Part shown: in pieces, positions 1 through 25,640 of the stretch
How positions within the stretch are numbered: the stretch's first letter is position 1
Layout: each line of letters starts with the position of its first letter
DNA from: an uncultured Prevotellaceae bacterium
Lineage (GTDB): Bacteria; Bacteroidota; Bacteroidia; Bacteroidales; Bacteroidaceae
Length of the DNA stretch: 32,956 nt
Assembly: GCA_947176655.1 (NCBI GenBank)
Contig: CAMWRK010000002.1
Location: forward strand, 1-32,956
Direction: 5' to 3'
The notes under the pieces: model-generated
The model's input: only the letters and a program-made list of their open reading frames with translations
Database searches by the model: none
Told to the model about the DNA's origin: nothing
Position numbers and translations under genes: made by a program

Positions 1-380
1 TGATGGATGCCGACACGTGGGACAGGATGTCGTGGAAGAGCGAGTATGACGGCACCATGCAGACCGCCCCGCGTGCGTATCCCGACATCACCCTGCGGCT
101 GAAAGAGCCGCAGGTGGTGACCCACGTGCGTTTCGCGCCCAAGAATGCCGACAACGGCATCCGCTCCGGCGACACCTACGAACTGCACTACTGGCATGAC
201 GGCTGGCAGTCCTGCGGCACTGTCAGGGCGGAATACGAGTATGTGGAGTTCCGCGACGTGCCCGCAGGCCAGCTCTACTGGCTCGAGAACAGGTCGCGCG
301 GACAGGAGGAGATGCCCTTCGTGCTGGACGAGGAGGGAAGGCAAAGGTTCGTGTACTATGATATTATTGACATCAAGTAA
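1..380 (+). CDS. C-terminal fragment of a secreted protein (F5/8-type-C-like C-terminal region, as in Bacteroidales transglutaminase-domain proteins); 5' end outside the window
   Basis: ORF 3..380 is open to the window edge. The sequence LRLKEPQVVTHVRFAPKNADNGIRSGDTYELHYWHDGW...LENRSRGQEEMPF resembles the C-terminal discoidin-like region of such proteins. Confidence 0.55.
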   Translation, partial: MDADTWDRMSWKSEYDGTMQTAPRAYPDITLRLKEPQVVTHVRFAPKNADNGIRSGDTYELHYWHDGWQSCGTVRAEYEYVEFRDVPAGQLYWLENRSRGQEEMPFVLDEEGRQRFVYYDIIDIK

Positions 381-412
381 GTTAAATAAACAAGCAACCA
401 AATATGATACGG

Positions 413-2000
413 TTCCAAAACATACCAATATGATGACTAAAGTAACAAGGAGAACCGTTCTGGCATTGCTGTCAGTCCTGTCCTTTGCAGTTCCATCGTT
501 TGCCGAGAAGAGGGATACTTTCTACGTAGATGGCTTTAAATACATTGTTGAGAATGCCACTACCGTTGCCATATCCGATGCAGGACCAGATGCCCCCATC
601 CCCATGTCGGAGGACAGTACGCTGACCATTCCGTCCGTGGTGGAGTTCGAAGGACGCACCTATAACGTAGACCGCATATACTGGGAGGCTTTCGCCCTCA
701 GACAGAAGATAAAACACCTTGTCATAGGCGAGGGCGTTAAGTTTATTGACCAATACGCTTTTTACATGTGTATGGGTCTTACGAGTGTGCACCTCCCGTC
801 AACTTATACAGGTTGGATAGATCGAGGAGAGTTCCTTATAGGTTGTTGCAATCTGAACCGCATCACGATAGACGAGCGTAACTACACGTACGACTCCAGG
901 GATGAATGCAATGCCATCATCCTCACAGAAGACAGCACTCTGGTTTTCGGATGCTTGGGGACGAGGATTCCGGCGACCGTCACAACCATCGGTCCCGGAG
1001 CCTTCCGCCAATGCTTAAAGCTGGAAAGCATCACCGTGCCGGAGGGCGTGAGGATAATCGAACCATGTGCCTTCCGGAACTGTGCCAACCTTAAGGAGGT
1101 CTCCCTGCCCAACTCTCTGGAAGGCATAGGATATAGTGCGTTCTCCGACTGCATGAGCCTGGAGACTATCACAATACCGCAGAACGTGTCGCAGATACGG
1201 GGCAATGACTTTTATGGCAAGATGTTGGATCCTTATAATCTGTTTGGGGGCTGCCATAATCTGAAGGAAGTCCGGGTGGACAAGAGAAACCGCACATTCG
1301 ATTCACGCAGCAACTGCAACGCCCTCATAGACACGTCGAGGGACATGATAGTGGCGGCCTGCGGAAATACAGTCATCCCGGATGGCATAAAAGGCATAGG
1401 GGCATACGCATTTACCGACATCTCCATTCCAGACATCAGGATTCCAAAAAGCGTGCAGACCATAGAGCCGGATGCGTTCTGGAGGTGCACCTTCTGTAGT
1501 TCCGTCTCCGTTGATGCCGGAAACAAGGCATACAACTCGAAGGACAACTGCAACGCCATAATAGAAACGGCAACAGGCAAGCTGATACACGGCTGTAGCA
1601 CGACCCGCATTCCGGACAATGTCAGGGAGATCGGCGACGGTGCTTTCTACGGTGTAAGGCTGCCACCGTTGCTGATCATCCCAGAAGGTGTGGAAACAAT
1701 CGGCGAACATGCATTTACGCGTGATTGCGGCTTGGAATATGTCAAGATGCCATCTACACTGAAACTGATAAAGAACGATGCCTTTGGCTGTTGCGATGGC
1801 ATACGTTACATAGACATGTCCAGATGCAGTCCAAAGATAGAAATGTTTGCATTTTCTCAGTGTGAGTATCTGTATCTGGTGGATTTCTCCCCAACCATCG
1901 GAGAGATACATGAACTGGCTTTCTCCCATTGCTATTGCGAGGCATGGGTGAAGAAACTTGTAGAACGCAGCAAATGAAAGAAATGATGAAAACGCTGTGT
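413..2000 (+). repeat. Direct long repeat, copy 1 (1588 bp)
   Basis: Aligns gap-free to 4391..5978. I counted 19 mismatches in 413..581 and none seen in 582..2000; translations of several reading frames are also identical. Confidence 0.93.
430..1977 (+). CDS. BspA-type leucine-rich repeat (LRR_5) secreted protein, copy 1
   Basis: Start placed at ATGATGACTAAAGTAACAAGG (MMTKVTRRTVLALLSVLSFAVPSFA signal peptide). Repeated ...CNAII...IPxxVxxIGxxAF... units are typical of BspA/LRR_5. The ORF track start at 145 is too far upstream. Confidence 0.9.
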   Translation: MMTKVTRRTVLALLSVLSFAVPSFAEKRDTFYVDGFKYIVENATTVAISDAGPDAPIPMSEDSTLTIPSVVEFEGRTYNVDRIYWEAFALRQKIKHLVIGEGVKFIDQYAFYMCMGLTSVHLPSTYTGWIDRGEFLIGCCNLNRITIDERNYTYDSRDECNAIILTEDSTLVFGCLGTRIPATVTTIGPGAFRQCLKLESITVPEGVRIIEPCAFRNCANLKEVSLPNSLEGIGYSAFSDCMSLETITIPQNVSQIRGNDFYGKMLDPYNLFGGCHNLKEVRVDKRNRTFDSRSNCNALIDTSRDMIVAACGNTVIPDGIKGIGAYAFTDISIPDIRIPKSVQTIEPDAFWRCTFCSSVSVDAGNKAYNSKDNCNAIIETATGKLIHGCSTTRIPDNVREIGDGAFYGVRLPPLLIIPEGVETIGEHAFTRDCGLEYVKMPSTLKLIKNDAFGCCDGIRYIDMSRCSPKIEMFAFSQCEYLYLVDFSPTIGEIHELAFSHCYCEAWVKKLVERSK

Positions 2001-3737: not shown

Positions 3738-4373
3738 ATGAAACAGACATTAAGAGTTCTTTCAACAGGCTTAATCGCTTTGGGTGCCATTACTTTTGTA
3801 GGCTGTAGTCAAGAAGATGCCTTTTGGTTTGACGACGATCTGAGTATCAACTCCCAAGTCCCGCTGACAAGAGGTGAAAGTGAGCAAACATTGGGAACAA
3901 TAAATTACAACCTGTTCAGTTACGGTGAAAATGAATGTTGTCTAATTGCCCTTGTGGAAATGAAAGGGAAGAAAAGAGAATTTGACGCTACTTATTCTGC
4001 CCAAAGCTGCTATAATGATATAAAAGAGTATGCGACTTCCCTGATGGACGAAGATGGAAATCCCAGATATGAGGGAGGCGCAATGGATCTTGAGGTATTT
4101 CTTGAGGTAGGAAGAAATTTTAATCTTATTAATGAGAGAAAGCACTTTAACAACGATGAAGAGAAAATGGAATATTTTCTGGATAAAAAGTGTAAGCCAC
4201 AAGCAATCAACATTGATGTATGGAATGAGGAGAAGAAAATTATGGAATCGCACGTTGCTCGCGTAGAGTCTGTAAAAAGAAAGAGCGGAACAATCGAATA
4301 CTCTGTTCGTAATGGGAAAAAACTGACTATGGCAGAAATAGACATAAAAGAAATCAAGGATGTCTGGATGTAA
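3738..4373 (+). CDS. Small lipoprotein with papain-like/C39-like cysteine peptidase features
   Basis: Signal peptide with lipobox (AITFVGC/S). GENECCLIALVEMKG resembles the Cys active-site context, and ESHVARVESVKRKSGTIEYSVRNGKKLTM resembles the C-terminal His context. Confidence 0.5.
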   Translation: MKQTLRVLSTGLIALGAITFVGCSQEDAFWFDDDLSINSQVPLTRGESEQTLGTINYNLFSYGENECCLIALVEMKGKKREFDATYSAQSCYNDIKEYATSLMDEDGNPRYEGGAMDLEVFLEVGRNFNLINERKHFNNDEEKMEYFLDKKCKPQAINIDVWNEEKKIMESHVARVESVKRKSGTIEYSVRNGKKLTMAEIDIKEIKDVWM

Positions 4374-4390
4374 GCCCGTTACCCAAACCA

Positions 4391-5978
4391 TTCCAAAACA
4401 CACCGATATGATGACTAAAGTAACAAGGAGAACTGTTCTGGCATTGCTGTCAGTCCTGTCCTTTGCAGTTCCATCGCTTGCCGAGGATATAGACACCTTC
4501 TACGTAGACGGCTTCAAGTACATTGTTGAGACCGACTCGACCGTTGCCATATCCGATGTAGGACCAGATGCCCCCATCCCCATGTCGGAGGACAGTACGC
4601 TGACCATTCCGTCCGTGGTGGAGTTCGAAGGACGCACCTATAACGTAGACCGCATATACTGGGAGGCTTTCGCCCTCAGACAGAAGATAAAACACCTTGT
4701 CATAGGCGAGGGCGTTAAGTTTATTGACCAATACGCTTTTTACATGTGTATGGGTCTTACGAGTGTGCACCTCCCGTCAACTTATACAGGTTGGATAGAT
4801 CGAGGAGAGTTCCTTATAGGTTGTTGCAATCTGAACCGCATCACGATAGACGAGCGTAACTACACGTACGACTCCAGGGATGAATGCAATGCCATCATCC
4901 TCACAGAAGACAGCACTCTGGTTTTCGGATGCTTGGGGACGAGGATTCCGGCGACCGTCACAACCATCGGTCCCGGAGCCTTCCGCCAATGCTTAAAGCT
5001 GGAAAGCATCACCGTGCCGGAGGGCGTGAGGATAATCGAACCATGTGCCTTCCGGAACTGTGCCAACCTTAAGGAGGTCTCCCTGCCCAACTCTCTGGAA
5101 GGCATAGGATATAGTGCGTTCTCCGACTGCATGAGCCTGGAGACTATCACAATACCGCAGAACGTGTCGCAGATACGGGGCAATGACTTTTATGGCAAGA
5201 TGTTGGATCCTTATAATCTGTTTGGGGGCTGCCATAATCTGAAGGAAGTCCGGGTGGACAAGAGAAACCGCACATTCGATTCACGCAGCAACTGCAACGC
5301 CCTCATAGACACGTCGAGGGACATGATAGTGGCGGCCTGCGGAAATACAGTCATCCCGGATGGCATAAAAGGCATAGGGGCATACGCATTTACCGACATC
5401 TCCATTCCAGACATCAGGATTCCAAAAAGCGTGCAGACCATAGAGCCGGATGCGTTCTGGAGGTGCACCTTCTGTAGTTCCGTCTCCGTTGATGCCGGAA
5501 ACAAGGCATACAACTCGAAGGACAACTGCAACGCCATAATAGAAACGGCAACAGGCAAGCTGATACACGGCTGTAGCACGACCCGCATTCCGGACAATGT
5601 CAGGGAGATCGGCGACGGTGCTTTCTACGGTGTAAGGCTGCCACCGTTGCTGATCATCCCAGAAGGTGTGGAAACAATCGGCGAACATGCATTTACGCGT
5701 GATTGCGGCTTGGAATATGTCAAGATGCCATCTACACTGAAACTGATAAAGAACGATGCCTTTGGCTGTTGCGATGGCATACGTTACATAGACATGTCCA
5801 GATGCAGTCCAAAGATAGAAATGTTTGCATTTTCTCAGTGTGAGTATCTGTATCTGGTGGATTTCTCCCCAACCATCGGAGAGATACATGAACTGGCTTT
5901 CTCCCATTGCTATTGCGAGGCATGGGTGAAGAAACTTGTAGAACGCAGCAAATGAAAGAAATGATGAAAACGCTGTGT
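4391..5978 (+). repeat. Direct long repeat, copy 2 (1588 bp)
   Basis: Same alignment as copy 1. Homology stops abruptly after ...AAAACGCTGTGT. Confidence 0.93.
4408..5955 (+). CDS. BspA-type leucine-rich repeat (LRR_5) secreted protein, copy 2
   Basis: Near-identical to 430..1977 at a constant offset of 3978 bp with no indels. Signal peptide MMTKVTRRTVLALLSVLSFAVPSLA. Confidence 0.9.
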   Translation: MMTKVTRRTVLALLSVLSFAVPSLAEDIDTFYVDGFKYIVETDSTVAISDVGPDAPIPMSEDSTLTIPSVVEFEGRTYNVDRIYWEAFALRQKIKHLVIGEGVKFIDQYAFYMCMGLTSVHLPSTYTGWIDRGEFLIGCCNLNRITIDERNYTYDSRDECNAIILTEDSTLVFGCLGTRIPATVTTIGPGAFRQCLKLESITVPEGVRIIEPCAFRNCANLKEVSLPNSLEGIGYSAFSDCMSLETITIPQNVSQIRGNDFYGKMLDPYNLFGGCHNLKEVRVDKRNRTFDSRSNCNALIDTSRDMIVAACGNTVIPDGIKGIGAYAFTDISIPDIRIPKSVQTIEPDAFWRCTFCSSVSVDAGNKAYNSKDNCNAIIETATGKLIHGCSTTRIPDNVREIGDGAFYGVRLPPLLIIPEGVETIGEHAFTRDCGLEYVKMPSTLKLIKNDAFGCCDGIRYIDMSRCSPKIEMFAFSQCEYLYLVDFSPTIGEIHELAFSHCYCEAWVKKLVERSK

Positions 5979-23918: not shown

Positions 23919-24458
23919 ATGAGAAAACTTAAGGTTACGGAAATGGGACGCATAAGTCCGCAAGAATTTCAGAAAGCACGTAAGACACCGATAGTAGTAG
24001 TTCTGGATTACGTAAGAAGTCTGTACAATGTAGGCAGCGTGTTCAGAACAGCCGATGCCATGCGCCTCGAAGGAATATATCTGTGCGGAATAACAGCCAC
24101 TCCTCCTAACATAGAAATACATAAAACTGCGCTCGGTGCTGAAGATACTGTATCGTGGCAATACTTCTGCAATACCGAAGATGCTGTTGCGTCGCTCAAA
24201 AATGAAGGATACACTATAATGGCAGTGGAACAATGTGAAGGAAGTACCATGCTTAATGAATTCAGACCGGACAGTGACAAAAAGTATGCCATTATACTTG
24301 GAAATGAAGTGAAAGGAGTACAGCAGCACATAGTGGATATGGCTGACGGATGTATTGAAATACCGCAGTTCGGAACCAAACACAGCATGAATGTTTCTGT
24401 TACGGCAGGCATTATAATATGGGATATGATGCAGAAAAGTTATCTACATTTATGTTGA
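23919..24458 (+). CDS. TrmH/SpoU-family RNA methyltransferase (second)
   Basis: VVLDYVRSLYNVGSVFRTADAMRLEGIYLCG, IILGNEVKGV, IPQFGTKHSMNVSVTAGI motifs. Confidence 0.94.
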   Translation: MRKLKVTEMGRISPQEFQKARKTPIVVVLDYVRSLYNVGSVFRTADAMRLEGIYLCGITATPPNIEIHKTALGAEDTVSWQYFCNTEDAVASLKNEGYTIMAVEQCEGSTMLNEFRPDSDKKYAIILGNEVKGVQQHIVDMADGCIEIPQFGTKHSMNVSVTAGIIIWDMMQKSYLHLC

Positions 24459-24704
24459 TAACCTTGATGAAAAAACATGTATAACAAATATTCCAATGAA
24501 GATAAAATTTAAAATATTTTCTTTTCAACATAGTAGAATACACTATAAACATGGTTATAGATAACAGTATCAACATTACAAAAATAATATATAAAACATA
24601 CATAATCAATATCTTTAGTATTAAGTAAAGCAAAGTTATCTACATTATCAACACAGTATTATTATCATCATTCATTTATAAAAAATAAATAAACAAAAAT
24701 AATA
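24440..24704. other. Candidate chromosomal replication origin (oriC): AT-rich gap with clustered DnaA-box-like sequences
   Basis: TTATCTACA at 24440-24448 and 24636-24644; TTATCAACA at 24645-24653 and inverted (TGTTGATAA) at 24453-24461; TTTTCAACA at 24522-24530; GTATCAACA at 24567-24575; very AT-rich DNA up to nadA. Located at a shift in third-position strand composition. Confidence 0.6.
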
Positions 24705-25640
24705 ATGAACCTTAAAGACAAAATACGCAGGATGTGCCGTGAAAAGAATGCGGTTATCATGGCACACTATTATACGGACGGAGAAATACAGGAAATAGCT
24801 GACTTTGTCGGTGATTCTCTTGCTCTCGCACAGAAAGCTGCCAGAACTGATGCTGATATAATAGTAATGTGCGGTGTACATTTCATGGGCGAGACAAGTA
24901 AGATTCTTTGTCCGGACAAGAAAGTTCTTGTTCCGGATATGGAGGCTACGTGTTCGTTGGCCGAAAGCTGTCCGGCAGACAAATTTGCTGAATTTGTAGC
25001 TTCACATCCAGAACATACGGTAATAAGTTATGTAAACACTACGGCTGCTACAAAAGCTGTGACAGACATAGTGGTGACAAGCAGTAACGCACGTCAGATA
25101 GTGGAGTCTCTTCCGAAAGATATGCCTATTATATTCGGTCCTGACCGCAATCTCGGAGGATATATAAACAGTATAACAGGAAGAAACATGTTGTTATGGG
25201 ATGGAGCCTGTCATGTACATGAAAAGTTTTCGGTAGAGAAAATACTGGAGTTGAAAGAGCAGTATCCTGATGCAAAGTTGCTGGTACATCCGGAATGTCG
25301 TGGAGCTGTCGTAAGACTGGCGGATAAGGTTGGATCGACTGCTGCATTGTTGAAGTACAGTATAAGCAGTCCTGCCACAACATTCATAGTAGCTACGGAA
25401 AGCGGTATTCTGCACGAAATGCAGAAAGCCTGTCCGGAAAAGACATTTATCCCTGCACCCCCTGATGACAGCACGTGTGCCTGCAATGAGTGTTCATACA
25501 TGAAACTTGTAACAATGCAGAAATTGTACGATTGTCTGCTAAACGAGTCACCTGAGATACTTGTAGATGCCGAAATAGCAAATAAAGCCATACGCCCAAT
25601 AAACCGTATGCTTGAAATATCAGAGAAATTAGGATTATAA
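24705..25640 (+). CDS. nadA: Quinolinate synthase
   Basis: AVIMAHYYTDGEIQEIADFVGDSLALAQKA, HPECRGAVVRLADKVGSTAALLKY, CACNECSYMKL. Confidence 0.96.
   Translation: MNLKDKIRRMCREKNAVIMAHYYTDGEIQEIADFVGDSLALAQKAARTDADIIVMCGVHFMGETSKILCPDKKVLVPDMEATCSLAESCPADKFAEFVASHPEHTVISYVNTTAATKAVTDIVVTSSNARQIVESLPKDMPIIFGPDRNLGGYINSITGRNMLLWDGACHVHEKFSVEKILELKEQYPDAKLLVHPECRGAVVRLADKVGSTAALLKYSISSPATTFIVATESGILHEMQKACPEKTFIPAPPDDSTCACNECSYMKLVTMQKLYDCLLNESPEILVDAEIANKAIRPINRMLEISEKLGL

Follow-up and report, generated by a model that had tools for sequence, protein, structure and literature searches.

The window analysed here, a stretch of 32,956 nt from a draft MAG (306 contigs, 2.2 Mb, 78.6% complete), contains an AT-rich gap between a trmH gene and nadA. 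Together with the 3' end of trmH, this gap was considered a candidate oriC based on a cluster of DnaA boxes and a keto-skew minimum. The 265-bp stretch from 24440 to 24704 has a GC content of only 18.9%, and the features of the locus are as follows:

23919..24458, + strand: trmH/SpoU-family RNA methyltransferase gene, left flank (PF00588, 1.3e-33)
24440..24704, no strand assigned: candidate oriC, made up of the 3' end of trmH and the AT-rich gap between it and nadA
24440..24448, + strand: DnaA box TTATCTACA within the trmH 3' end, found at the same place in the genus relatives L006 and L008
24453..24461, - strand: inverted DnaA box TTATCAACA that overlaps the stop codon of trmH; L007 has a corresponding box at -257
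24522..24530, + strand: weak DnaA box TTTTCAACA, one mismatch, conservation not seen in the genus sequences
24567..24575, + strand: weak DnaA box GTATCAACA, one mismatch
24636..24644, + strand: upstream DnaA box of the core module, TTATCTACA, position kept in genus and order
24645..24653, + strand: downstream DnaA box of the core module, TTATCAACA, abutting the upstream box, position kept in genus and order
24654..24657, + strand: 4-nt spacer CAGT, mostly SSCT in relatives (from sequence and comparison)
24658..24672, + strand: five triplets ATT ATT ATC ATC ATT, a variant DnaA-trio-like repeat (complement 3'-TAR-5')
24673..24704, + strand: probable first unwinding stretch, 30/32 A/T, reaching the nadA start codon
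24705..25640, + strand: nadA, quinolinate synthase, right flank, its transcription leading away from the origin (PF02445, 1.3e-121)

Two ORFs on the left side of the window (145-1977 and 4360-5955) are accompanied by overlapping antisense ORFs of equal lengths (106, 107 and 128 aa) and equal spacing, which suggests a duplicated segment.

The four exact boxes and two near-matches listed in a preliminary description of this DNA were all recovered in the AT-rich gap, as were the abutting pair (24636-24653) and the inverted pair across the trmH stop codon (24440-24461). The four exact TTATCNACA boxes compare with a mean of 0.036 in 20,000 first-order Markov versions of the gap, among which the maximum was 2 and four were never reached, placing the cluster beyond chance. 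Across the 2.2-Mb draft, TTATCNACA occurred exactly 97 times, close to the count for the reversed control pattern (77). The genome-wide box search proposed in the preliminary description returned no comparable cluster, that is, no second intergenic group of four exact TTATCNACA boxes within a few hundred base pairs anywhere in the assembly. The sole other box array lies at the end of contig C207 (G000:C207:5-53, L319), where five exact TTATCTACA boxes occur in a minisatellite-like 10-bp tandem repeat of TAAATGTAGA units. It is a possible DnaA-binding array, and was rejected as a rival origin since it is a short tandem repeat at a contig end in which the model described below (R1) found no module. 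The dnaA gene is located on contig C182 of the assembly, which bears out the earlier remark that it is missing from the window.

A comparison of the sequences upstream of nadA in 30 genomes of the genus showed that the conserved part is a 37-bp core module (24636-24672) and not the whole gap. In the module, a pair of DnaA boxes that abut each other is followed by a 4-nt spacer and then by five ATY triplets. Its consensus is TTATCNACA followed by NTATCNACA-SSC-(Y)AT-YAT-YAT-CAT-CAT, and beside it lies the AT-rich stretch (94% AT) that probably serves for unwinding. A sequence-only model of the module, R1, was built from 27 genus sequences and 3 others from the order. On the window, R1 scored the module at 31.8 bits, the next best place reaching 6.6 bits. 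Matches to R1 were obtained in 95 of 248 genomes of the order, many being missed at strict settings; where the position of nadA could be checked, 58 of the 71 best matches were on the nadA strand, at a distance of 78-294 bp upstream of the gene. Outside the order, R1 gave 8 weak matches in 117 genomes (best E 1e-3), and because it is nearly silent there, the module looks order-specific. Among 80 loci taken from GTDB genome records, 74 cores fell outside the training set, and 55 of these scored at least 20 bits with a position weight matrix whose best background score was 14.9 bits in 1.27 Mb; all module counts come from related genomes and are not independent samples. In nearly all genus loci the module was present upstream of nadA, even where trmH was inverted or moved. 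The conservation in relatives that the preliminary description had proposed to examine thus extends across the Bacteroidales, for the module and its position.

In the Prevotella loci checked, the module was not found upstream of nadA. Four loci of Prevotella and Hallella (L334, L336, L348 and L396) have a nadA gene lacking an upstream module, and the origin has therefore probably parted from nadA in these genera, as in family f51 (G111, G221, G254 and G286). The complete genome G244 carries eight R1 matches on C1 (for example L146), mainly to box 2 and the ATC part and several with identical scores; these may represent a dispersed repeat similar to the unwinding module.

Nucleotide skew was computed for the window and for relatives with complete genomes or large contigs (G218, G168, G251 and G234), which span three families. 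The cumulative keto-skew minimum of the window fell in the bin 24000-25500, which holds the gap. In G218, G168 and G251, the cumulative keto minimum was located no more than about 5 kb from the start of nadA (from sampled and contiguous stretches), and in G234 the skew switched within about 2.5 kb of it, so that in all four relatives the sign of the skew changes at the nadA 5' end. In three of them (G218, G234 and G251) dnaA is found at the contig start, far from this minimum, in line with the statement in PMC4755523 that oriC in Bacteroidetes is commonly far from dnaA. Two families, represented by G254 and G153, have a module that does not adjoin nadA, and these two genomes served as a blind test. 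In G254, nadA is 168 kb away and the module lies upstream of a gene judged ruvB-like by its sequence; in G153 there is no nadA within 10 kb, and ychF is still nearby. At 2-kb resolution, the R1 match in both genomes coincides with the point where the keto skew turns from negative to positive, which indicates that the module tracks the origin and not nadA. In G258, where the skew is weak, the R1 match was without skew support. Six single-contig Bacteroidales genomes begin at dnaA (L159, L165, L170, L173, L178 and L181, in G251, G218, G196, G234, G295 and G258, respectively), and since in those tested the skew minimum lies a long way from dnaA, Bacteroidales assemblies rotated to dnaA do not start at oriC.

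These observations bear on two other explanations of the locus. The module might be a promoter or operator of nadA involved in NAD regulation, with DnaA-box-like words occurring by chance, and its location shortly upstream of nadA, on the strand of that gene, in most genomes would fit such a role. In G218, G168, G251 and G234, the skew minimum at nadA is nevertheless a replication signal, and in G254 and G153 the module is found at the skew switch despite its separation from nadA, making a purely regulatory element of nadA very improbable. Box clusters can also serve as DnaA sinks, and dnaA is often assumed to mark oriC, so the locus could be a regulatory or titration site for DnaA while the true oriC lies elsewhere, for example at dnaA. 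We hold this to be just as improbable, given the distance of dnaA from the skew minimum in G218, G234 and G251, the common separation of oriC from dnaA in Bacteroidetes according to PMC4755523, and the coincidence of the best module match with the skew switch in G254 and G153. The proposal of the preliminary description that the gap is the chromosomal origin is hence supported by the unique intergenic box cluster, by the retention of the module upstream of nadA, and by the skew minimum in the window and in relatives. We conclude with high confidence that the trmH-nadA gap is the chromosomal replication origin, the region upstream of nadA being very probably the site where copying of the chromosome starts.

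The repeat downstream of the abutting boxes was compared with the basal unwinding system (BUS) of B. subtilis. In B. subtilis oriC, the box strand reads CTA CTA TTA CTT CTA CTA (5'-CTACTATTACTTCTACTA-3'; PMC10201434), and the BUS has the consensus 3'-GAT-5' on the bound strand and a spacer of about 4 bp (PMC8287927). Like the BUS (PMC6669920, PMC8287927, PMC10721633), the module combines tandem boxes, a short spacer (averaging 4 bp in the BUS) and, in the same register, a trinucleotide repeat whose complementary strand has A at the centre of the triplet. The complement of 24658-24672 reads TAA TAA TAG TAG TAA, so that five 3'-NAN-5' triplets follow the tandem boxes after a 4-nt spacer, where a BUS has at least three within 16 bp of a box. 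Unlike the BUS, the module has triplets of the form 3'-TAR-5' (box strand: ATY) and not 3'-GAT-5' (CTA), its boxes abut without a gap, and it does not lie beside dnaA. The preliminary description had pointed to a different trio, TAGTAGAAT directly after TTTTCAACA; this sequence is present (24531-24539) but is a chance-level match, reads TAG on the box strand where the canonical trio reads CTA, and did not appear among the genus sequences. The repeat at 24658-24672 is the more trio-like of the two.

The register of the repeat was further assessed in a sample of 60 genomes of the order chosen, as a guard against bias, by nadA position alone, with box pairs picked blind to the sequence that follows them. 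For the 16 strong box pairs, ATN occupied the canonical register in 41 of 80 positions, where 11.3 would be expected; none of 5,000 permutations reached this count, and CTA did not occur there (0/80). In the order, the complement of the repeat has thus kept the central A with changed surrounding bases, giving 3'-TAR-5', and the single-strand code of Bacteroidales appears to have shifted from 3'-GAT-5' to this triplet.

In the cryo-EM structure of B. subtilis, R202 and E228 of DnaA hold the G of the triplet, and N187 and E183 hold the A (PMC10721633). With these contact roles transferred from B. subtilis, we aligned the DnaA of the source genome to the B. subtilis chain and found I221, A247, V206 and H202 in place of R202, E228, N187 and E183, respectively. 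All four GA-contacting residues of the BUS are thus replaced, and three of them (N187, R202 and E228) are, with the 3'-GAT-5' consensus, the BUS hallmarks lacking here. Among 30 Bacteroidales DnaAs, R202 was never R (I/M/L/V) and E228 never E (A/T/V/S/I), N187 and E183 were each kept in one, and the arginine finger R264 was invariant. Among 29 DnaAs from other Bacteroidota, R202 was always and E228 mostly lost; 27 of them retained E183, and 21 had N or Q at position 187. The change on the A side is therefore largely order-specific, whereas that on the G side is wider and not confined to genomes carrying the ATY repeat. It is plausible that the variant trio is read by the remodelled DnaA pocket, and the residue changes may be causally linked to the ATY repeat.

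A third explanation accepts the origin and takes the ATY repeat to be only an AT-rich DUE, or a sequence bound on the box strand, and not a trio of canonical geometry. Within the repeat, it is indeed the box-strand A that varies least (55, 54, 54, 52 and 53 of 55 at +5, +8, +11, +14 and +17), and the T opposite the canonical central A was found in only 33 and 28 of 55 at +12 and +15, which makes recognition of the box strand a live alternative. The 3-nt periodicity, the fixed 4-nt spacer and the preserved canonical register, which plain AT-richness would not demand, argue against it, and we consider this explanation tentative, with odds somewhat against it. That 3'-TAR-5' replaces 3'-GAT-5' as the DnaA single-strand code in Bacteroidales origins, with the base-capture pocket changed along with the code so that the initiator-origin pair may be orthogonal to the Bacillus type, is a proposal to which we give even odds.

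Our main reading, with a probability of roughly 0.9, is that a gut Bacteroidaceae species starts replication of its chromosome in this gap, with module-guided opening and an apparently changed single-strand code. DnaA would bind the outer boxes as well as the two that abut at 24636-24653, and this pair would guide it over the 4-nt spacer onto the ATY repeat; the remodelled initiator-specific-motif pocket would probably read 3'-TAR-5' there, and the duplex would open through the adjacent AT-rich stretch toward nadA. This order of assembly is modelled on the B. subtilis basal unwinding system, the location and conservation of the module being direct observations.

The signals used here (skew extremum, DnaA box cluster and intergenic AT-rich stretch) are those of the predicted origins in DoriC and Ori-Finder, whose main texts make no mention of Bacteroidetes, of nadA as an indicator gene, or of a TAR trio (PMC6323995, PMC10225481). 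The predicted oriC of Prevotella intermedia OMA14 resembles the gap in its skew transition, multiple DnaA boxes and distance from dnaA, and the available text of that report was found to describe neither a link to nadA nor a trinucleotide repeat (PMC4755523). Our literature search returned nothing on a nadA-linked oriC or on DnaA pocket changes in Bacteroidetes. Published BUS work foresaw possible deviant trios, none being named for Bacteroidota in the main texts.

The locus is thus an object of an ordinary kind, an oriC, carrying a variant unwinding code that looks new. Because an order-wide deviant repeat occurs together with replaced DnaA contact residues, the link between origin and pocket is directly testable. 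The module also provides a sequence-level rule by which oriC can be located in genomes of the major gut order Bacteroidales, fragmented MAGs included; such a rule is useful for coverage-based inference of growth rates and for rotating assemblies, several of which begin at dnaA far from the origin.
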